A stretch of 64,000 nt of DNA, taken from assembly GCF_021608225.1 (NCBI RefSeq), contig NZ_JAKIJS010000001.1, positions 620,001-684,000 on the forward strand, in the 5' to 3' direction. Below, one piece after another: positions 42,701-56,173 of this stretch (position 1 is its first letter; every line of letters starts with the position of its first letter). Under the pieces are notes generated by a model. It worked only from the letters and a program-made list of their open reading frames with translations, did no database searches and had not been told where the DNA came from. Source of the stretch: Pseudalkalibacillus berkeleyi (GTDB lineage Bacteria; Bacillota; Bacilli; Bacillales; Fictibacillaceae). A program made the translations under genes and the position numbers.

Positions 42701-45613
42701 ATGATGCGATTTATGAAGACTTATACGACGATGTATCGCAACAAAGCGCAAATACTTGAGTTTATAGAGAGGAATGAACTTTCCAATAAGGAAAACCTAT
42801 TTATACAAATCTTTACGAAGGACGGAAAAGTGAAAGTTACTCGTCTTCATGAGATCTTGGTTGATGCGTTACCTCAAGCTGTATTAATTGGTGCAACCGT
42901 AGACGCATCATTTAGTAAAGAAATTAAGACTGCAGGAACTGTCGTTTCAATTACTGTTTTTAACAAGGTGAAGGTTAAGAGCACTTTTGTTCAATTTAAT
43001 CCAGGTATGGATACGTACCAAGAAGCATTGAATATGGGACAGAATACAATTAACGATGACACAAAAGCAATCGTTCTATTCGGTAGCAGTCATACAATAG
43101 ATAACCAAGTTGTGTTAGATGCTTTTGCGAATCATTATCCTGATTTACTAGTAGCTGGTGGGAATGCTGTCCCGCTTGGTACGAACAATCTGGAGTATCT
43201 TATTGCGACAGACGGCATTATCGATTGTGGAATGGTTGTAGTCAGTTTATCTGGAGTGGACCTTCAGGCATCGTTACACGCATGTACAGAATGGAATACA
43301 GCTGGTAGATCCTTTATGGTTACAGGAGCTAATGAGGATTTGATTCAAACCCTTGATCATAAGCCGGTTAAAGAAATTTATCAAAAATATTTAGGCAGGG
43401 AAATGCTCGAAAATATTAAGCAAGCAGGTTCATCTTTTCCATTAATGGTGAAGCAAGGGGCTGTTACGAAACCTATCCTAATAAAGGACTTTCATCAAGA
43501 CGGTTCAATCACTGTGGCTGAGCCAATTGAAGTTGGGACGACCGTTTATATTGGTTGTGGTGATGCAAGCATCTTTCTTAATACGTTCAATTTCATTTCA
43601 GACAAATTAAGAGGTGTTCCGGTAGAAGGATTATTTATGTATTCTTGTATGTCACGGATCCGTTTTTTCAAAAAAGGCGTTGAACATGAAATGAATACGA
43701 TTAAGAACCTTGTACCCACTACCGGTGCTTTTACAGCAGGTGAGTATTATCATGAAGATGGGAAGAATGAAATGCTTTCCTATGCGCTCACCTTCCTTTC
43801 GTTGGCTGAGTCTGAAGTTTACATCGACGAGACAGATTTTAATCGTGCAGCAAACACAAACTCAGAGATAAAGGAAATTCTTGCTTTGTCTCAATTAATA
43901 AAAGCTTCAACTGAAGATTTAGAGGAACTTTACAATAGTTTAAGAGAGTCTGAACAGCGCTATACATCGTTATTTGAGCATAATCCGGATATCGTATACT
44001 CCGTAGATTCACATGGTAAAATTACAAGTATTAATGCTTCACTAGAGAAAATATTAGGATATACGTGTAAAGAGGTCATCGGAAACAAGGCTACGGATTT
44101 CTTAAGAGAAGAAGATGTTGAGCGCGTCTATCATTACTTTCACTTAGCAATGAGAGACAAGCCACAGCACTTTACGTTAGTAATTCGTCATAAGAATGGA
44201 GAAAATGTGCTGTTCGAAATTGCGAACATGCCAATTAGGGTAAATGATGAAGTAGTAGGCGTGTATGGTGTTGCCAAAAATAGAACAGAGCAGTTTTTAG
44301 CTGAACAAAAGATTTCAGAACTTGCCTATCATGATAGTTTAACAGGGTTACCGAACAGGTTATCTTTTCATGAGCGATTAAACGAAAAGATAGAGATAGC
44401 ACATGAGAATAATGAAAGTGTTGCGGTCATGGTCATAGATTTAGATGAATTTAAAATGATTAATGATAGCCTAGGTCATCATGCTGGAGATCGAATTTTA
44501 AAGCACGTTGCGACCAATTTAAGTGGTTGCATTTCAGATCGTGATTTTATTGCTCGTTTTGCAGCAGATGAATTTCTTATCTTGGTGCCAACAGTAGAGA
44601 GTGTTAATGAATTGTCAGCATTGGCTGATCAATTGCTTACTGCAATTAAGAAACCCGTTTTCCTAAAAGGGAAGGAATATGTTTTATCAGGTAGTATTGG
44701 GGTCAGTCTCTATCCAAGTGATGCGTTAGACGAAGAAAAATTACTCAAAAATGCGAATTTAGCCTTACATAAGGCTAAACGAAGTGGTCGTAATAGTATA
44801 CAATTCTTCACAGGCGATATGAATGCTATGATTTCAGAAAGATTAGAGCTAGAAAATCATTTGCGGAAGGCGCTTAGTTTGAACGAACTAGAAGTCTATT
44901 ATCAACCGCAAATAGATATTGAATCGGGTCGTGTGTTTGCTTTTGAAGCTTTATTACGCTGGAAACATACTAAACGTGGAATGATTCCTCCAAACATTTT
45001 TATTCCCATTGCAGAAGACACAGGGGTCATTAATGAGATTGGTTATTGGGTATTATTAGAAGCATGCACGCAAACGCGTCAATGGCATGAGTCAGGTATG
45101 AACGATCTATCCGTATGTGTCAATGTATCGGGTATCCAGTTCCAACGACCGGATTTTATTGATGAAGTGAAAGCATGTTTAGAAACATCAGGCTTGGAGT
45201 CATCCTTCCTTCATATCGAATTGACTGAGAGTATTATGCTTGAGGATGTCGAGCACACGATAAAAATTATTAACCAACTTAAGGGATTAGGTGTGAAGAT
45301 CTCAGTAGATGATTTTGGTACAGGATATTCCTCTTTAAGTTACTTAAGAGACTTTCCAATCGACATATTAAAAATCGACCAATCATTTATTAGAAATCTA
45401 GAAGATTCAAATCCAGATGCTGCTATCGTACGTGCAATCATCACAATGTGTGAAGGGCTAAATGTAACAGTTCTTGCCGAAGGTGTTGAAACAGAGCAGC
45501 AACTTAAAACGCTACAACAGTTTGGTTGTAATCAAATTCAAGGCTATTACATTAGTAAACCAGTAAAAGCAGTAGAAATAAAAGGCTTATATAAGAACTT
45601 TCAAATGAATTAA
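42701..45613 (+). CDS. FIST-PAS-GGDEF-EAL cyclic-di-GMP phosphodiesterase with degenerate cyclase domain
   Basis: 970 aa, no membrane segment. FIST sensory domain about 15-385 (with LFMYSCMSRI, Cys316), PAS about 415-535 (SLFEHNPDIVYSVDSHGKI), GGDEF about 540-705, EAL about 715-965. The cyclase signature reads AADEF (621-625) instead of GGDEF, so cyclase activity is doubtful. The phosphodiesterase residues are intact: FEALLRWKH (Glu749), NVSGIQF, IELTES, DDFGTGYSS, KIDQSFI and LAEGVETEQQ. FIST domains bind small molecules such as amino acids. ATGATG at 42701 follows GTAGGGA; Met2 or Met5 are alternative starts. A terminator follows, so it is monocistronic. Confidence 0.93.
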   Translation: MMRFMKTYTTMYRNKAQILEFIERNELSNKENLFIQIFTKDGKVKVTRLHEILVDALPQAVLIGATVDASFSKEIKTAGTVVSITVFNKVKVKSTFVQFNPGMDTYQEALNMGQNTINDDTKAIVLFGSSHTIDNQVVLDAFANHYPDLLVAGGNAVPLGTNNLEYLIATDGIIDCGMVVVSLSGVDLQASLHACTEWNTAGRSFMVTGANEDLIQTLDHKPVKEIYQKYLGREMLENIKQAGSSFPLMVKQGAVTKPILIKDFHQDGSITVAEPIEVGTTVYIGCGDASIFLNTFNFISDKLRGVPVEGLFMYSCMSRIRFFKKGVEHEMNTIKNLVPTTGAFTAGEYYHEDGKNEMLSYALTFLSLAESEVYIDETDFNRAANTNSEIKEILALSQLIKASTEDLEELYNSLRESEQRYTSLFEHNPDIVYSVDSHGKITSINASLEKILGYTCKEVIGNKATDFLREEDVERVYHYFHLAMRDKPQHFTLVIRHKNGENVLFEIANMPIRVNDEVVGVYGVAKNRTEQFLAEQKISELAYHDSLTGLPNRLSFHERLNEKIEIAHENNESVAVMVIDLDEFKMINDSLGHHAGDRILKHVATNLSGCISDRDFIARFAADEFLILVPTVESVNELSALADQLLTAIKKPVFLKGKEYVLSGSIGVSLYPSDALDEEKLLKNANLALHKAKRSGRNSIQFFTGDMNAMISERLELENHLRKALSLNELEVYYQPQIDIESGRVFAFEALLRWKHTKRGMIPPNIFIPIAEDTGVINEIGYWVLLEACTQTRQWHESGMNDLSVCVNVSGIQFQRPDFIDEVKACLETSGLESSFLHIELTESIMLEDVEHTIKIINQLKGLGVKISVDDFGTGYSSLSYLRDFPIDILKIDQSFIRNLEDSNPDAAIVRAIITMCEGLNVTVLAEGVETEQQLKTLQQFGCNQIQGYYISKPVKAVEIKGLYKNFQMN

Positions 45614-49820: not shown

Positions 49821-49920
49821 AATCTGTCTATAATTTCTGGAATCTGTCTATAATTTCTGGAATCTGTCTATAATTTCTGGAATCTGTCTATAATTCCTGA
49901 AATGTATCTATAATTGCAGA
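49821..49920. repeat. Five tandem 20-bp repeats, each with TATAAT
   Basis: Units start exactly at 49821, 49841, 49861, 49881 and 49901. The first three are identical (AATCTGTCTATAATTTCTGG); the fourth and fifth have diverged. TATAAT occurs at 49829, 49849, 49869, 49889 and 49909. They fill the space upstream of the NERD gene. A degenerate half unit lies at 49811. Confidence 0.93.
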
Positions 49921-50006
49921 ATGAAGATTCATTTGAAAATTTGAGGAAGGATTTACATCTTAGCGAGCAGAATTTCAATACAGAAACCTTATATGGGAGT
50001 GATTTA

Positions 50007-51005
50007 ATGCAAATAAATAAACCGTTTATTGCACTGCAGTTGATGGCTTTGTTGAGGCGAAGCCCTGCAAAAGATCGATCGCACCCTAAGCATTCTATCA
50101 TTATTAGAAGACTTAAAAGGGTTATGGGAGGTTTTAGAGGCGAAGAAAGCGTATTTTACCAGCTTAATTATCTACCTAAAGAACAATTCCTCATTTTACA
50201 TGGTCCCAGATTATCCAATGAAAATACTTACTTCCAAATTGACTTTCTTGTTCTTTCTCCTCACTTTTACACCATCATTGAAGTGAAAAACATATATGGA
50301 GAACTTTATTTTGATCCAGTATTTGATCAACTTATTCGAAAAATGCCAGATGGCACCCAAACCGGCCTACAAGATCCAACTTCACAAGTGAAAATACAAA
50401 AAATGCAACTTCGTAAATGGTTAAAACATCATAAACTTCCTATAGCCCCTATAAAATACCTCATCACGGTCAGTGACCCCAAAACCATATTGAACACTTC
50501 GTTAGCTAATCACAACATTTCAAATTGGATTATACATAAACACGCTCTTATGAGTAAGTTTGAGCATTTTATTAAGGCTAATCCAAAAGAAATCATTTCC
50601 AATAAAGATGTCAAAAAAATAGCCAGGAAAATAAAGAGAAAAAATGAACCGCTATTATCTGATGTATTAGATACCTATAAATTTACTCCATCACAAATTA
50701 CGAGCGGTGTTTCTTGTCCAAAATGCCTTGAACTACCTATACCAAGACATAAATACCGAAAAAATTGGGTGTGTCCAACATGCAGAGCTTCATCTAACCA
50801 AGCCTATTTCGAAGCTATCGCAGATTATGCTCTATTAATCAATAACACTTTTTCAAACAGGCAGATGAGATTATTTCTTCATATTGATTCAGATTCAACA
50901 GTCTACAATCTCCTCAAAAAAATGAACATCCAAACTGTAGGTAGAAAGCATTCAATTTCCTTAGATGATGTGTATATGTATGCGAATAAAAACTTTAATG
51001 AGTAG
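50007..51005 (+). CDS. NERD-domain nuclease-related protein with zinc-ribbon
   Basis: 332 aa from the ATG at 50007, which has GGGAGTG five bases upstream; a TTG at 49914 inside the repeat array is a possible longer start. The NERD region (RVMGGFRGEESVFYQLNYL, then YFQIDFLVLSPHFYTIIEVKN) holds a PD-(D/E)xK-like core with Asp, Glu and Lys. A C-terminal zinc-binding pair CPKC ... CPTC follows, and a short tail. NERD proteins occur in DNA-processing and plasmid contexts; the substrate is not known. It is a single gene between the repeats and the N-demethylase operon. Confidence 0.87.
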   Translation: MQINKPFIALQLMALLRRSPAKDRSHPKHSIIIRRLKRVMGGFRGEESVFYQLNYLPKEQFLILHGPRLSNENTYFQIDFLVLSPHFYTIIEVKNIYGELYFDPVFDQLIRKMPDGTQTGLQDPTSQVKIQKMQLRKWLKHHKLPIAPIKYLITVSDPKTILNTSLANHNISNWIIHKHALMSKFEHFIKANPKEIISNKDVKKIARKIKRKNEPLLSDVLDTYKFTPSQITSGVSCPKCLELPIPRHKYRKNWVCPTCRASSNQAYFEAIADYALLINNTFSNRQMRLFLHIDSDSTVYNLLKKMNIQTVGRKHSISLDDVYMYANKNFNE

Positions 51006-51118
51006 TTGCCAAAGATTCCCCTCTTTCCAACACAAAACCTCTATCATTCATTTCTTGAAGGAGTTCTGACACTATATATTGAACTTGTAGTTTAACGTAT
51101 GTAGAGAGGAGTTTACCT

Positions 51119-52066
51119 ATGTCATCTCATACATTTCCATTCCCATTTACGACAAATCAATATGCCTATTCAAATAATTCTTCGCTACTCGAACCTGCTT
51201 GGACTGTGACGGTTACAGATGAATATAAACATGAAGTATTATTGAAGCGAAAATTACTGCATCAAAACCATGATAGATGTTACCGTTCACTCCCTATTTC
51301 AATTGAGTCGCAATGGGAAGCGATGCGACTTGTGCTGAATCATCTGGCGGAAGCGTATCCTAACCACTTTAGTTTAGAAAAACGAGGAAAAGAATATCGA
51401 TTTCAAAATCATTTGTTACAGGAAGAAGAACGGTTTATTTTCAGAGACAACAGTTCAGTAAACCTTGAGCCGCTTGATTTGGTAGGTCGTCATATCCAGG
51501 AGGATCTCATTTTGATGGGGGATCGCAGCGATGGCTTATTTTTAGAGGCTGGTCAGCTTTGTTTTCCTTCAAATTGGTCCTTGACGTTTGTGCTTGGTAT
51601 GGAATTTAAGTCGATTCATATGCCAGTTCCTAATATCACGGACAATGGTTTTATTCAAAAAGTTGAACGGTTCATTTCAAGAATTCGTCCCAACACCGCT
51701 TGGGAACGAAAGAATTGGTCCATTACCATATCAGAAAAGCTCGATACCCCTCTCGAAACGTATGCTGAATGGGGGAAGCTCCGTCAAGAAGTTACAGAAG
51801 AGAATGCAGTTGAAATGGTTCATCTCCGAGTCGAAGTTCAGCGGTTGTACCGACTTCCGATTAACAATGACATACTTTTTACCATCCACACTTATCTTTT
51901 ATCCTTAAAAGATTTAGTTAAGAATGATCATTGGCTAAAGCTCTTTTACAGTAATATCAAAACGCTTCCCGAAGAAATTACAGATTACAAAGGGATTTCC
52001 TTCTATAGAAAAGACTTGATGAAGTATCTTGAAAATAAAATGGCTCATAAGAAGATGATCCGATGA
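51119..52066 (+). CDS. DUF3445 heme-dependent N-demethylase-like subunit (DmmC-like)
   Basis: 315 aa. The repeated motif content (CFPSNWSLTFVLGMEFKSIHMPVP near 160, then HLRVEVQRLYRLPINNDILFTIHTYLLSL near 245) is that of DUF3445, the alpha subunit of heme-dependent oxidative N-demethylases and the catalytic part of dimethylamine monooxygenase. These remove a methyl group from secondary amines with release of formaldehyde, using electrons from a flavoprotein. AGAGGAG lies before the ATG. It shares ATGA with the next gene. Identity of the family is good; the substrate is inferred from context. Confidence 0.83.
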   Translation: MSSHTFPFPFTTNQYAYSNNSSLLEPAWTVTVTDEYKHEVLLKRKLLHQNHDRCYRSLPISIESQWEAMRLVLNHLAEAYPNHFSLEKRGKEYRFQNHLLQEEERFIFRDNSSVNLEPLDLVGRHIQEDLILMGDRSDGLFLEAGQLCFPSNWSLTFVLGMEFKSIHMPVPNITDNGFIQKVERFISRIRPNTAWERKNWSITISEKLDTPLETYAEWGKLRQEVTEENAVEMVHLRVEVQRLYRLPINNDILFTIHTYLLSLKDLVKNDHWLKLFYSNIKTLPEEITDYKGISFYRKDLMKYLENKMAHKKMIR

Positions 52067-52488
52067 AAAGAAAAATCGTTCTTTTTACAGATGAAAGGCA
52101 TATGGAACAAGCGAATACTAAGCTTAAATCATTTGAACAGGACGGACGAATGTGTGAATTGATTATAGTTAAAAGTGAGACAAATTACGAAGAAATACTG
52201 ACTGGATTGTCAGTTGGTACTCAGGTATTGATTTGTACTGAGGCTGAAGAAGCACAAGTAATCCAAAGATCAGCATTAAGTTTAGGTTTCCTTCATGATG
52301 ACATCATTTACATGTCTTCAAAAGAGAAGAATCCCCGTGTATTTTGTTCACAGTGTCATTTTATACAAAGGGTGGACCAGAAAATAGCTTTCAAATGTAG
52401 AAACTGTAGTCAAAAAATTCTACCTTCTGACCATTATTCAGCTTATCATCATGCCTTTCTTGCATACCCAAGCTTTCAAAAAGGATGA
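52063..52488 (+). CDS. DmmA-like small subunit with four-cysteine metal site
   Basis: 141 aa. An alpha/beta N-terminal part is followed by CSQC (95, 98) and CRNC (112, 115), a probable zinc or iron site, and the closing SDHYSAYHHAFLAYP. This arrangement is that of the DmmA-like subunit of dimethylamine monooxygenase. It overlaps both neighbours by 4 bp (ATGA at each end), so the three products are likely made in fixed ratio. Confidence 0.78.
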   Translation: MKRKIVLFTDERHMEQANTKLKSFEQDGRMCELIIVKSETNYEEILTGLSVGTQVLICTEAEEAQVIQRSALSLGFLHDDIIYMSSKEKNPRVFCSQCHFIQRVDQKIAFKCRNCSQKILPSDHYSAYHHAFLAYPSFQKG

Positions 52489-53432
52489 ACAAACCCATGA
52501 AACAATTTTATCAATTGAGAGTATTGAAAACAGAATATGTCACACCAACAGTTAAGAAATTCACACTGACTTCTGAGGAAATCAACCTACCAAGCTTCGG
52601 GGCTGGTGCACATATTACGGTGAAACTTCCGATGGGTACGCGACAGTATTCCCTTACCAATGATCCTTACCAACAAGAGAATGAATATACGATTGCGGTG
52701 AAGAACATTGGGAGTGAAAACAGTGCATCAACGTTTTTACATGAACACATTGAAGAAGGGGATACACTCGAAGTGTCCGGTCCTGATAATTATTTTCCAG
52801 TTCGATCCGAAGGTAAGCATCATGTATTCTTTGCGGCTGGAATCGGAATTACCCCATTTCTTTCCATGATGGCCTATTTGATTCAAATTGATCAGTCGTT
52901 TGAACTCCATTATGCAGGAGCAAGTAAAGAGGATTGTGCATTTTATAAAGAAATTAAAAACCAATACCCGGAACAAACGACTTTTTATTTTATGGAACGA
53001 GAACAAAAAGTCCAAATACTAAGAGAAGTGTTGAGTAATCAAACGGTTGGCACACACTTTTACATTTGTGGACCGGCTGGATTCATGGATCAGTTCATAT
53101 CATATTGTAATGAGATTGGTTATCCAGATGAGTGTGTCCACTCAGAAAGATTCCGTCCGGCGAACACAACCATAAATCGAAAACCGTTTTCAGTAACCAT
53201 TGGTAAAAAAACCATCCAAGTTGGTTCAAACCAAAGCTTGCTCCAAGCCATAAATGAAAAAGGGATCCTAGTTCCATATGCTTGTCAAATGGGCATCTGC
53301 GGTACGTGTGAAGTGGCAGTATGTAACGGAGAAATTCTCCACAATGATACGTTTTTGACAGATGAAGAGAGAAAGGTGAAGATGCTTTCTTGTGTGTCTC
53401 GAGGGATTGGGCACATCACTATTAAGATATAG
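52485..53432 (+). CDS. Phthalate-dioxygenase-type reductase (DmmB-like), FMN and 2Fe-2S
   Basis: 315 aa. FMN/FAD-binding RQYSLTND (53-60), NAD-binding GIGITPFLSM (119-128) and ICGPAGFMD (194-202), then a C-terminal plant-type ferredoxin domain with Cys267, Cys272, Cys275 and Cys303. It passes electrons from NAD(P)H to an oxygenase. Such reductases serve VanB, phthalate dioxygenase and dimethylamine monooxygenase; the partner here is the DUF3445 protein two genes upstream. It ends directly against the convergent LigD polymerase gene. Confidence 0.92.
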   Translation: MNKPMKQFYQLRVLKTEYVTPTVKKFTLTSEEINLPSFGAGAHITVKLPMGTRQYSLTNDPYQQENEYTIAVKNIGSENSASTFLHEHIEEGDTLEVSGPDNYFPVRSEGKHHVFFAAGIGITPFLSMMAYLIQIDQSFELHYAGASKEDCAFYKEIKNQYPEQTTFYFMEREQKVQILREVLSNQTVGTHFYICGPAGFMDQFISYCNEIGYPDECVHSERFRPANTTINRKPFSVTIGKKTIQVGSNQSLLQAINEKGILVPYACQMGICGTCEVAVCNGEILHNDTFLTDEERKVKMLSCVSRGIGHITIKI

Positions 53433-54347
53433 TCACTGATTCAATAGCCCATCCAAAATTCTCCTTAAGGGTTGTGTGCTGCGAATCGAGTCCATTTCAG
53501 AGAATGGACATCCTTTTGTTTTGATGCGTTTGAGAACATCGGAAATGGAGAACATCTCTGGTTTCAATCGTTCGTCCACTTCGTCCCAATAAAGTGGGGT
53601 AGCAACAAGTGCATCATCATTCCCTCTCAATGAGTAAGGGGCAATAATCGTTTTTCCTTCTGCATGCTGTAAGAAATCAATATAACACTTCGAACCTCTA
53701 TTCTCTTTCAACCGTTCGATTGTAAAATTATCTGGAAATTGAGTCACTAAATAATCCGCAATAAATTTCGTGAAAACTCTTGTTTCTTCATAAACGAACT
53801 GATCTTCAGGAATTGGAATATAAATTTGCAACCCTTTGTTGCCAGAAGTTTTGATAAAACCAGTGAGGTCAAAACGGTCTAGTATTTTCTTTATTTCCAA
53901 ACCTGCTTGGACGGCAAGAGCGAAATGATCCCTAGATGGAGGATCCAAGTCGAATACAATTTCTGAAGGTGAGGATGAACCCATCTTATTGAAAGGTATA
54001 TGAAACTCCAAGGATAATTGATTCCCCAGCCATATGAGGGTCTCTAAATCGTTACAAACGATGTAATTAATCTTCTCATGTACCTTGGTTTGTATGAAAT
54101 CTGGTGCATAATCGGGACAATTTTTTTGATAAAAGTAATCATCATACATCCCATGAGGATAACGCTTTACGGTCAAGTATCGATTGTTCAAAAAAGGTAG
54201 CATACGCTTATGGACTTCAATCAAATAATGAAGGTAAGCTTGCTTGTTAATGTCCTTTTCAGGATATAGTAGCTTATCTAAACTCGTCACCTGAATGGTG
54301 TGACCATTAATATTCAACTGTCCATTTGCGTTTGAAGTGCTTCCCAT
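53433..54347 (-). CDS. ligD: NHEJ polymerase domain protein (LigD POL)
   Basis: 304 aa. The archaeo-eukaryotic primase fold is seen from VTSLDKLLYPEKDINK, metal-binding Asp133 and Asp135 in IVFDLDPPS, TSGNKGLQIYIPIP and KTIIAPYSLRG. It fills gaps at ends during non-homologous end joining. In B. subtilis this is the C-terminal half of LigD (YkoU); here it is a separate gene in another frame, starting 34 bp before the ligase gene ends. GGGAGGA lies before its own ATG at 54347. Confidence 0.92.
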   Translation of the reverse strand: MGSTSNANGQLNINGHTIQVTSLDKLLYPEKDINKQAYLHYLIEVHKRMLPFLNNRYLTVKRYPHGMYDDYFYQKNCPDYAPDFIQTKVHEKINYIVCNDLETLIWLGNQLSLEFHIPFNKMGSSSPSEIVFDLDPPSRDHFALAVQAGLEIKKILDRFDLTGFIKTSGNKGLQIYIPIPEDQFVYEETRVFTKFIADYLVTQFPDNFTIERLKENRGSKCYIDFLQHAEGKTIIAPYSLRGNDDALVATPLYWDEVDERLKPEMFSISDVLKRIKTKGCPFSEMDSIRSTQPLRRILDGLLNQ

Positions 54348-55273
54348 GTGCAGTCCTCCCAGTGGATATCCAACCTGAATTGTACGAATCTCGGATGTCT
54401 TAATTGCATGTTATACAATTCTAGAAACTCCAACTCGACACAGATCCCGGGGCTGACTTTAATCAATGTTCCTTTTCGTCCTTTTTGGTTGTTCTGCACG
54501 ATCTGTATGAGCGCTTCCCGATCTTTCCCTTCAAGACCATGGGAAAACAAACCGATTTGTTCTAGCTTTTTATCTTTTATGACAGCGATATGAACATATC
54601 CATTCCCTTCATCAAACCCAGTCACAATGAAAAAGCCTCGGAATAATCGTTTGACTTTCAACCAATTAGGCGTTCGTTTTCCTGAAATCCAAAGACTGTT
54701 CTTCCTTTTCGCGACGATGCCTTCACCTTTCTTACTCTTCACTTGATTAAAAAGTGATTCACCATCTGACTGAGGTGGTATCCACTGAATTGAGGTTTGA
54801 AAGTCATGATTAACTGTTGGGTAAGACATCTTATTCATCCAGGATTGTAGCTGTTGTTTCCGGTTGATATACGTTTCACTCTTTAGTGGTTTTCCTCCTA
54901 TCACCAACAGGTCAAAAACCAAGTAGGTAACAGGGGACAAGAGGGTATGTTGTTGTATCTTCTCTATATTTTTCAGTCGGCCACGTTTTTGTATTTGTGA
55001 AAATGAAGCACGAATATCAGATTCAAGTACACATAGTTCACCATCTAATAAAATAGGTAAATCCTCATTGTATTCATTCTGTATTCGAGTAGCTTCTTTT
55101 ACAATCTCCGGAAAACCTGTTCTTAAAGAAATTAGATTTCTGCTATAAAGGTCAATTTCCTCTTCATCAATATAAAGAAGACACCTGAAGCCATCATATT
55201 TGATTTCATAGTACAAATCATCCCCTTCCGGGACCTCGGATGTTAAGGTAGGAAGCATCGGTTTAAGCCGCAT
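54314..55273 (-). CDS. ligD: NHEJ ATP-dependent DNA ligase (LigD LIG)
   Basis: 319 aa. The adenylated lysine is Lys25 in EIKYDGFR; other ligase motifs are LLDGELCVLE, EGIVAKRK and NWLKVKRL. The OB-fold follows. It seals ends brought together by Ku. Its ATG shares one base with the Ku stop (TAATG), and its tail overlaps the polymerase gene by 34 bp in another frame. It lacks the polymerase and phosphoesterase domains often fused to it. Confidence 0.93.
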   Translation of the reverse strand: MRLKPMLPTLTSEVPEGDDLYYEIKYDGFRCLLYIDEEEIDLYSRNLISLRTGFPEIVKEATRIQNEYNEDLPILLDGELCVLESDIRASFSQIQKRGRLKNIEKIQQHTLLSPVTYLVFDLLVIGGKPLKSETYINRKQQLQSWMNKMSYPTVNHDFQTSIQWIPPQSDGESLFNQVKSKKGEGIVAKRKNSLWISGKRTPNWLKVKRLFRGFFIVTGFDEGNGYVHIAVIKDKKLEQIGLFSHGLEGKDREALIQIVQNNQKGRKGTLIKVSPGICVELEFLELYNMQLRHPRFVQFRLDIHWEDCTWEALQTQMDS

Positions 55274-56091
55274 TATTCACTGCTCGCTTTTTTCTTTCTT
55301 GTGCGGGTTGTTTTCTTCTTCTTCGGTTTTGTGTCATCAATACTTGCTTGTAATGCATCCATTAAGTCAACAACATCTGCTTTTGGTTGTTGCTTTGCAA
55401 CTTTAATTTGTTCACCTTTAACCTTACTTTGTATGGCTTCCATCAAAGCTTCGCGATAATCGTCTTGATATTTTCCTGGATCGAATTCTGTCGTCAATTG
55501 TTCGATCAATTGAATGGCCATTTTTAATTCTTTCTCGTTTAACTCGACCTCCTCAGGTATTTCAGGAACGAGATCGATATTCCTTACTTCATCAGGAAAA
55601 TGAATGGTTTCAAGCAAAAGTCCTTTGTCATAAACACGGACAACGGATAAATGTTGTTTGGAGCGTATCATCACTTTCGCTATCCCGATTTTTCCGGACT
55701 CCTCCATCGCATTCTTCAAAAGGCTATAGGGCTTTGAACCATTTTCGCCAGGTCCGATAAAATAAGAGCGATCGAAGTAGATGGGGTCAACTTCAGATAA
55801 ATGGACAAAATCTAAGATTTCAATTGATTTCGTTTGCTCTTTTGAAAGAGCATCTAGATCCTCTTTCTCTAGTTCGACGAATTTATTCGGTTCATACTCA
55901 TAGGCTTTAATAATTTCACTTTGCTCTAGAGATTTCTCACAGGCTGTGCATGTTTTTTCATATTTGATAGGACTGTGGTCTTCTTTATGAAGCTGTCTCA
56001 TTTTGATGTCTTTGTTTTCAGTAGCTGCAAATAATTTGATTGGAATCGTGACTAATCCAAAACTAATTGAGCCTTTCCACATTGTGTGCAT
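55273..56091 (-). CDS. ku: Non-homologous end-joining protein Ku
   Basis: 272 aa from MHTMWKGSISFGLVTIPIKL, the standard Ku opening. The Ku core runs to about 255 and a basic tail (KPKKKKTTRTRKKKASSE) follows, as in B. subtilis YkoV. It forms a ring on DNA ends and recruits LigD. The frame extends upstream to 56148, but similarity starts at this ATG (or three residues later). In B. subtilis the operon is under SigG in the forespore; I see only a poor candidate upstream. Ku, ligase and polymerase form one coupled operon. Confidence 0.95.
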   Translation of the reverse strand: MHTMWKGSISFGLVTIPIKLFAATENKDIKMRQLHKEDHSPIKYEKTCTACEKSLEQSEIIKAYEYEPNKFVELEKEDLDALSKEQTKSIEILDFVHLSEVDPIYFDRSYFIGPGENGSKPYSLLKNAMEESGKIGIAKVMIRSKQHLSVVRVYDKGLLLETIHFPDEVRNIDLVPEIPEEVELNEKELKMAIQLIEQLTTEFDPGKYQDDYREALMEAIQSKVKGEQIKVAKQQPKADVVDLMDALQASIDDTKPKKKKTTRTRKKKASSE

Positions 56092-56173
56092 ACCGAGGCA
56101 TCCCTTCATCCTTTTATACATAATGTCTGCTATAAAGGACCATTCCATTATCCCCAGTTTTTACTAGTTCATG

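Follow-up and report, generated by a model that had tools for sequence, protein, structure and literature searches.

A predicted three-gene oxygenase unit of the HODM/Dmm kind in Pseudalkalibacillus berkeleyi and its relatives among the Bacilli

Introduction

The closest described counterparts of the locus presented here are HODM, from Pseudomonas mendocina, and the DmmDABC systems of Ruegeria pomeroyi, Paracoccus aminophilus and Methylocella silvestris. According to a study that appeared in Nature in 2016, HODM reportedly contains haem, FMN, 2Fe-2S and tetrahydrofolate and carries out the oxidation of dimethylamine. To our knowledge, the enzyme family has become known solely through dimethylamine oxidation and mostly from proteobacteria. 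In the case of the Dmm proteins, one report states that dmmABC, without other dmm genes, oxidise dimethylamine to methylamine in E. coli, DmmD being auxiliary (PMC5520151), and another that P. aminophilus no longer grows on dimethylamine when any one of its dmm genes is mutated (PMC4543880). No study of the corresponding Bacilli genes was found among the literature matches listed, which covered open-licence papers.

The locus lies in a stretch of 64,000 nucleotides (hereafter, the window) of the 3.50 Mb genome of Pseudalkalibacillus berkeleyi, which has a single gene of the PF11927 family. A sequence-only reading had proposed that this gene is the first of a three-gene unit resembling dimethylamine monooxygenase. 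Families, fold, conserved residues, linkage, gene context and a marker residue were computed for this triad and its relatives.

Organization of the Three-Gene Unit

The three frames are all open and uninterrupted on the + strand, just where the sequence-only reading had placed them (Table 1), and their family matches are far above chance, bearing out the proposal of a three-gene Dmm-like unit. The triad has counterparts of the core subunits A (a borderline match), B and C of DmmDABC, from which it nonetheless differs in several respects: the order is C-A-B, in contrast to A-B-C in seven annotated proteobacterial plasmid loci; dmmD, found upstream in five of these loci, downstream in one and absent from one, is lacking; the middle subunit is shorter than six proteins annotated as DmmA family (175 to 206 aa); and no methylated-amine neighbours, of those sought, flank it.

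Table 1. Features of the triad, in positions of the window
Feature	Position	Strand	Remarks
Putative RBS, GAGGAG	51106..51111	+	Read from sequence; 7 bases 5' of alpha start
Alpha subunit (PF11927/DUF3445, HODM-alpha/DmmC-like haem-PAS)	51119..52066	+	315 aa; PF11927, 5lte and 5lth matches
Middle subunit, DmmA-like	52063..52488	+	141 aa; PF22289 match; CxxC-x13-CxxC
Reductase, phthalate-dioxygenase-reductase type	52485..53432	+	315 aa as longest frame; 2pia, Fer2 and NAD_binding_1 matches

The genes had also been described as overlapping by ATGA at both junctions. When the sequence was read directly, ATGA was found at 52063 and at 52485, and the first of these overlaps recurs widely, a four-base overlap of alpha and middle genes being seen in 35 of the 57 loci that have both partners (the window counted), but the second is doubtful as a start. 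At this middle/reductase junction, AAAGG runs straight into ATGA and a further in-frame ATG follows at 52497; four of the six relatives displayed (L041, L045, L063 and L094) likewise have one within a few codons downstream. For these reasons, the ATG at 52497 seems more likely to be the reductase start than the ATGA at 52485, which is probably a ribosome site lying over a stop. Upstream of alpha, no shared control element was found in the 150 bases compared between the window and 14 near relatives, a weak negative given that each gene was assumed to begin where its longest frame does, which certainly leaves some of the compared sequences misaligned, and a promoter scan returned 6 sites, compared with a mean of 9.4 after shuffling.

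The Alpha Subunit

The membership of the first protein in the DUF3445 family was confirmed at the level of both sequence and fold. It scored 221.5 bits against PF11927 (cut-off 25) and matched P. mendocina HODM (5lte; further structures 5lth and 5lti) with 1.4e-65 over residues 5-305, that is, over nearly its full length, and its AlphaFold model (pLDDT 88.7) aligned with 5lth, the complex of HODM with dimethylamine, with an E of 5.9e-31, a TM of 0.89 and 37% identity. In an alignment of 62 rows, made of 61 loci plus HODM, residues D129, S154, G160, H167, P171, R197, N199 and W200 (window numbering) are identical throughout, and H167, R197, N199 and W200 are also kept in seven of seven further alphas. 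On the basis of this conservation, H167 is the obvious candidate for a haem ligand. Within the PAS range, given as HODM 155-290 in PMC8694187, the window protein and HODM have the same H, R, N, W, E and Q. A difference from HODM is that no dedicated tetrahydrofolate-binding gene stands beside the window triad.

The Reductase and the Middle Subunit

The third protein matched the phthalate dioxygenase reductase 2pia with 2.8e-47 and contains Fer2 and NAD_binding_1 domains, the motif RQYSL (residues 53-57) and the C-terminal [2Fe-2S] cysteines 267, 272, 275 and 303 (C-x4-C-x2-C-x27-C). It is, as had been proposed, a reductase of the phthalate-dioxygenase type (PDR), with predicted flavin and [2Fe-2S] sites.

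The second gene had been read as encoding a DmmA-like four-cysteine subunit, and this description holds in part. Cysteines 95, 98, 112 and 115 are kept without exception across the 28 relatives aligned, and the protein narrowly passed PF22289, DmmA-like_C (29.4 bits, cut-off 27.4), but it fell below the cut-off of the NCBIfam DmmA model NF041259 (55.2 bits, cut-off 60), and PF22290 was not listed for it in the same Pfam search. Profile searches thus left the first two genes within the DUF3445 and DmmA-like families, the middle protein being borderline. Its model (pLDDT 92.9, pTM 0.68) had 2pia as its best PDB match (E 6.8e-4, TM 0.49, rmsd 7.9), and a profile comparison with the nucleotide-binding domain of the reductase gave an hhalign value of 1.9e-9 and a probability of 96%, the GIGITP loop of the reductase not being conserved in that alignment; the direct pairwise match is weak (E 0.017). 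These comparisons point to a small Rossmann-like domain related to the NAD-binding domain of the reductase, to which a Cys4 motif is added, and the protein appears to be a pared-down relative of the reductase that has become a subunit for docking or relay.

Distribution, Linkage and Constraint

The sequence-only reading had held that such oxygenases belong mainly to marine and methylotrophic proteobacteria, a view that proved too narrow. PF11927 was found in all eight genomes of the genus (the source genome counted), in 58 of 299 sampled genomes of the order and in 4 of 398 genomes sampled across the phylum, all four from the order of the window. In 61 loci that were read (60 fetched plus the window), a simple frame picker located both partner genes near alpha in 57. 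The family is common in Bacilli. The misses were L040, L042, L065 and L098; in L040 and L042 the middle gene is probably hidden by a longer overlapping reductase frame, while a 462-aa frame of L065 was considered as a natural middle-reductase fusion and rejected, as it has no Cys4 motif and seems to be a reductase frame extended out of register. In the set of 94 loci to which the window belongs (the orphan set, see below), the reductase is downstream of alpha in 94 and a Cys4 frame is present in 92. Proteobacterial loci show no downstream partner in this count because their A and B genes sit upstream, and the middle-gene lengths it gave, which run from the first Met of each frame, are crude and were left aside. 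The linkage of the triad holds while its neighbours change.

In one genome pair, dN was 0.17 for alpha and 0.26 for the reductase, both with undefined (saturated) dS, and the middle gene gave 0.60 against 2.9. A search of 50,697 phage records yielded no match that would indicate carriage by phages.

Lineages and a Marker Residue

An unrooted tree of 116 distinct alphas (147 before identical ones were removed) contained several solid groups: 11 Bacilli including Bacillus methanolicus PB1 (the PB1-type, 98/96), a third Bacilli lineage of five rows (100/100), six proteobacterial alphas (100/100) and a 15-row set around the window (100/100). The PB1-type and the proteobacteria were split from all others with 98/85, and the remaining 94 alphas, the orphan set, fell on one side with 86/88. 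The 98/85 split was at first taken to prove that the window falls outside the branch of the known enzymes, and this was withdrawn in view of a second unrooted tree of 54 rows, to which five proteobacterial or actinobacterial sequences (one of them actinobacterial), B. badius and one remote relative were added, and which includes HODM and P. aminophilus DmmC, the R. pomeroyi and M. silvestris DmmC being in neither tree. The second tree keeps the PB1-type (99/97), the third lineage (100/100) and the neighbours of the window (100/100), but it leaves the backbone open, with a single origin of the 25 orphan rows used appearing in 58% of bootstraps, and it may in turn be distorted by two very long rows, L201 and L198. 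Identity values draw no sharp line either: the mean identity to HODM is 43.7% for the PB1-type and 40.4% for the orphan set (38.0% for the window), with overlapping ranges (42.3-46.3% in 11 loci and 35.0-44.7% in 94 loci, respectively), and the window alpha is on average 45.8% identical to PB1-type alphas.

The lineages do differ at one position, HODM T228, directly after the invariant R-x-N-W. It is T in 17 of 17 PB1-type and proteobacterial alphas, S in 91 of the 94 of the orphan set (S201 in the window, differing in this from HODM) and N in five of five of the third lineage; S is the commonest type among the Bacilli loci examined. Seven added alphas carried T in Paracoccus aminophilus, Mycobacterium, Cupriavidus, Ruegeria conchae and Paraburkholderia, N in B. 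badius and A in a remote relative that shares 27% identity with the window protein. A change from T to S is mild, and this difference is not to be over-read, since of 67 PAS-range positions common to the six proteobacterial alphas the window keeps 41, close to the 43 that L068, L073 and L076 each keep (the third lineage, 34). P239 was tried as a second marker, being found in 16 of 17 alphas of the first set, and dropped on account of T in L198 and V in L201.

In gene organization, the PB1-type loci (such as L155 of B. methanolicus PB1 and L176 of Alkalihalobacillus sp. BA299) resemble the window in having the reductase downstream in 11 of 11 and a Cys4 frame adjoining alpha in 10 of 11, the exception being L073, in which the probable middle gene sits past the reductase. 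They are set apart from the window as a separate solid lineage, by the T at 228 in all 11 and by some methylated-amine neighbours. The third lineage (L047, L067, L070, L075 and L079, together with L197 of B. badius) has the same three-gene core and order as the window, but differs in the N at 228, in the PAS-range changes W180F and F184W and in a fixed, catabolic-looking context in all five loci plus L197.

Gene Neighbourhood

The context of 115 loci was searched with 23 query proteins under thresholds set by ourselves, covering up to about 10 kb on each side (less where contigs end, and under 15 kb in total for six orphan loci). None of the 23 was found beside the window triad, which thus has no methylated-amine neighbour among those sought, and the 94 orphan loci had an ammonium transporter in one, an aldehyde dehydrogenase in four and no other query protein. 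This near absence is the informative part of the search, given that all queries came from L068, L070, L076, L180, L182 and L183 and that counts in those groups include self-matches.

With this proviso on self-matches, the 11 PB1-type loci showed an ammonium transporter (Amt) in five, an IclR regulator in seven, an EutQ-like cupin in six, an acyl-CoA-dehydrogenase-like protein in three, the protein c132 in three, GmaS plus MgsABC in two, a monomeric-sarcosine-oxidase-like protein in two and an aldehyde dehydrogenase in one; L168, of 7 kb, had none. Six of the 11 were without a nearby ammonium transporter, nine without NMG genes, and a DmmD-like gene was beside none of them. Each of the five proteobacterial loci had several of the query neighbours. 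In the third lineage, a sigma-54 activator, an NCS1 permease and an aldehyde dehydrogenase were present in five of five, the queries being from L070 itself, and the triad of the Bacillus badius plasmid pPM400 (L197) has these neighbours around it too, with an annotated hemA directly preceding alpha. A haem-synthesis gene within this cluster fits with a haem enzyme, to judge by analogy; the hemA near L173 was not counted as such evidence, since it lies about 6.5 kb from the triad and is perhaps an ordinary chromosomal gene.

The fixed cluster of the third lineage (including L197) comprises the sigma-54 activator, a small protein, the NCS1 permease, the triad and an enzyme resembling betaine aldehyde dehydrogenase (below the model cut-off), and it suggests a dedicated amine catabolic operon yielding an aldehyde. 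In Bacillus methanolicus PB1 (L155/L068), ammonium transporters, an IclR-type regulator and an EutQ-like cupin are near the triad, and neither MgsC nor a GmaS orthologue was found in that genome at the thresholds used. EutQ-like cupins occur near Dmm-type genes in an actinobacterium (L198, 4122-4493) as well as in PB1-type Bacilli (L155, L178, L073 and L176). The protein c132, of 270 aa, is encoded beside PB1-type triads (L068, 12175-12990; L073; L174), and for the L068 copy neither Pfam nor NCBIfam gave a match at the thresholds used.

The Rest of the Pathway

Enzymes that could act after dimethylamine oxidation were sought in whole genomes. NMG synthase (MgsC, E up to 1e-60) was found in two of 299 genomes of the order, one being that of the query, and GmaS, at 71% identity or more, in the same two only; neither was the genome of the window, in which a single weaker GmaS match (1.2e-62) was read as an ordinary glutamine synthetase. 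Copper amine oxidase was found in none of the eight genus genomes, and monomeric sarcosine oxidase TIGR01377 scored above cut-off in none, with weaker relatives in all; the RuMP enzyme HxlA was above cut-off in four of the eight, that of the window not included. No DmmD gene adjoins the triad, and each of the eight genomes has one GcvT-like protein 27-29% identical to DmmD, which in the source genome (28%) is encoded about 1 Mb away. If the source organism were to oxidise dimethylamine, methylamine would probably be left over.

Possible Function

The triad is a three-component oxygenase of the HODM/Dmm kind by its alpha subunit, fold and reductase, with a borderline third subunit. In the mechanism that we infer, which extends to haem, electron path and demethylation, the three genes would specify a single chain of electron transfer whose last member is a haem oxygenase of this kind. 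Electrons from NAD(P)H would pass through the flavin and the [2Fe-2S] cluster of the reductase; the DmmA-like protein, as a shrunken relative of the nucleotide-binding domain of the reductase with a putative four-cysteine metal site, would dock or relay; and the haem-PAS domain of alpha would activate O2, so that a methyl group leaves a small N-methylated amine as formaldehyde. The window copy stands on its own as a triad, with no dedicated genes for regulation, transport or C1 metabolism adjoining it. We favour, with modest confidence, an explanation in which the triad encodes a haem-PAS N-demethylase of a small N-methylated amine, growth on dimethylamine probably not being its purpose.

The main competitor, plausible if rather less probable, is a plain dimethylamine monooxygenase that converts dimethylamine to methylamine and formaldehyde for scavenging or detoxification, the methylamine being excreted or used by another enzyme. 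The triad has the same three subunits that suffice in E. coli (PMC5520151), and the dmm mutants of P. aminophilus fail on dimethylamine (PMC4543880); the fold matches dimethylamine-bound 5lth, and the core residues common to HODM and the window alpha appear to fit dimethylamine just as well. The trees give no resolved separation from the known enzymes, and it was the open backbone of the 54-row tree that led us to rate this possibility slightly up and our favoured explanation slightly down. The sequence-only reading had argued that the substrate may not be dimethylamine from the missing neighbours. That may be correct, but the reason is weak, because DmmD-like genes are equally missing from beside the 11 PB1-type loci and dmmABC suffice in E. 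coli. Better hints against dimethylamine are the empty context of the 94 loci, which hold one ammonium transporter and no other sought methylated-amine gene, the S in place of T at 228 and the failure to find NMG synthase, a GmaS orthologue or copper amine oxidase in the genome of the window, although none of them settles the substrate.

PAS haem domains are mostly sensors, and alpha might accordingly be pictured as a sensor or stress protein with a haem-PAS domain and retained redox partners, active for instance in salt stress, rather than as a demethylase. E. coli MKH13 became more salt-tolerant with a DUF3445 gene from saline soil on its own (PMC5809485); however, the linkage, in all 94 loci, to a reductase complete with flavin and [2Fe-2S] parts, and a full-length fold and residues common to the enzyme HODM, make a sensor role very unlikely. 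A decaying remnant devoid of present function is the least probable of all: the middle subunit of the window has only 38% identity to that of L041, compared with 76% for alpha, but all three frames are open, PF11927 is kept throughout the genus and dN is low against saturated dS.

Returning to the favoured N-demethylase, a broader proposition can be put forward tentatively, with rather less confidence: that HODM-type PAS enzymes have diversified in substrate within the Bacilli, as marked by T, S or N after R-x-N-W, and that the S type of the window demethylates a substrate other than dimethylamine. If this were true, the PAS enzyme family would carry out, in many Bacilli of soil and sea, a chemistry that has gone unrecognised. 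The chemistry of the known enzymes is established already; what the lineages, contexts and 228 marker add is that substrate diversity in the family becomes testable, as Bacilli lineages differing at a residue beside an invariant motif, and in gene company, offer a direct way to ask whether it has more than one substrate.

Other Genes of the Window

Just 5' of the triad, a gene at 49914-51005 encodes a NERD-domain protein with a pair of CxxC motifs at its C-terminus. It was considered as a triad partner and rejected, since in the other genomes of the genus the first-copy loci, seven in all, carry family c20 (LacI-like by eye) in its place. On the other side, positions 53433-56148 of the - strand encode Ku, an ATP-dependent ligase and a LigD primase-polymerase domain, each in a gene of its own and with slight overlaps, instead of a single fused LigD. 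These LigD/Ku genes are kept 3' of the triad across the genus, in opposite orientation, and the end-joining gene clusters c13/c14 adjoin the triad in seven other genus genomes as well. Farther upstream, the region 42701-45613 encodes a 970-aa FIST-PAS-GGDEF-EAL protein, a cyclic-di-GMP protein of the sensor type.
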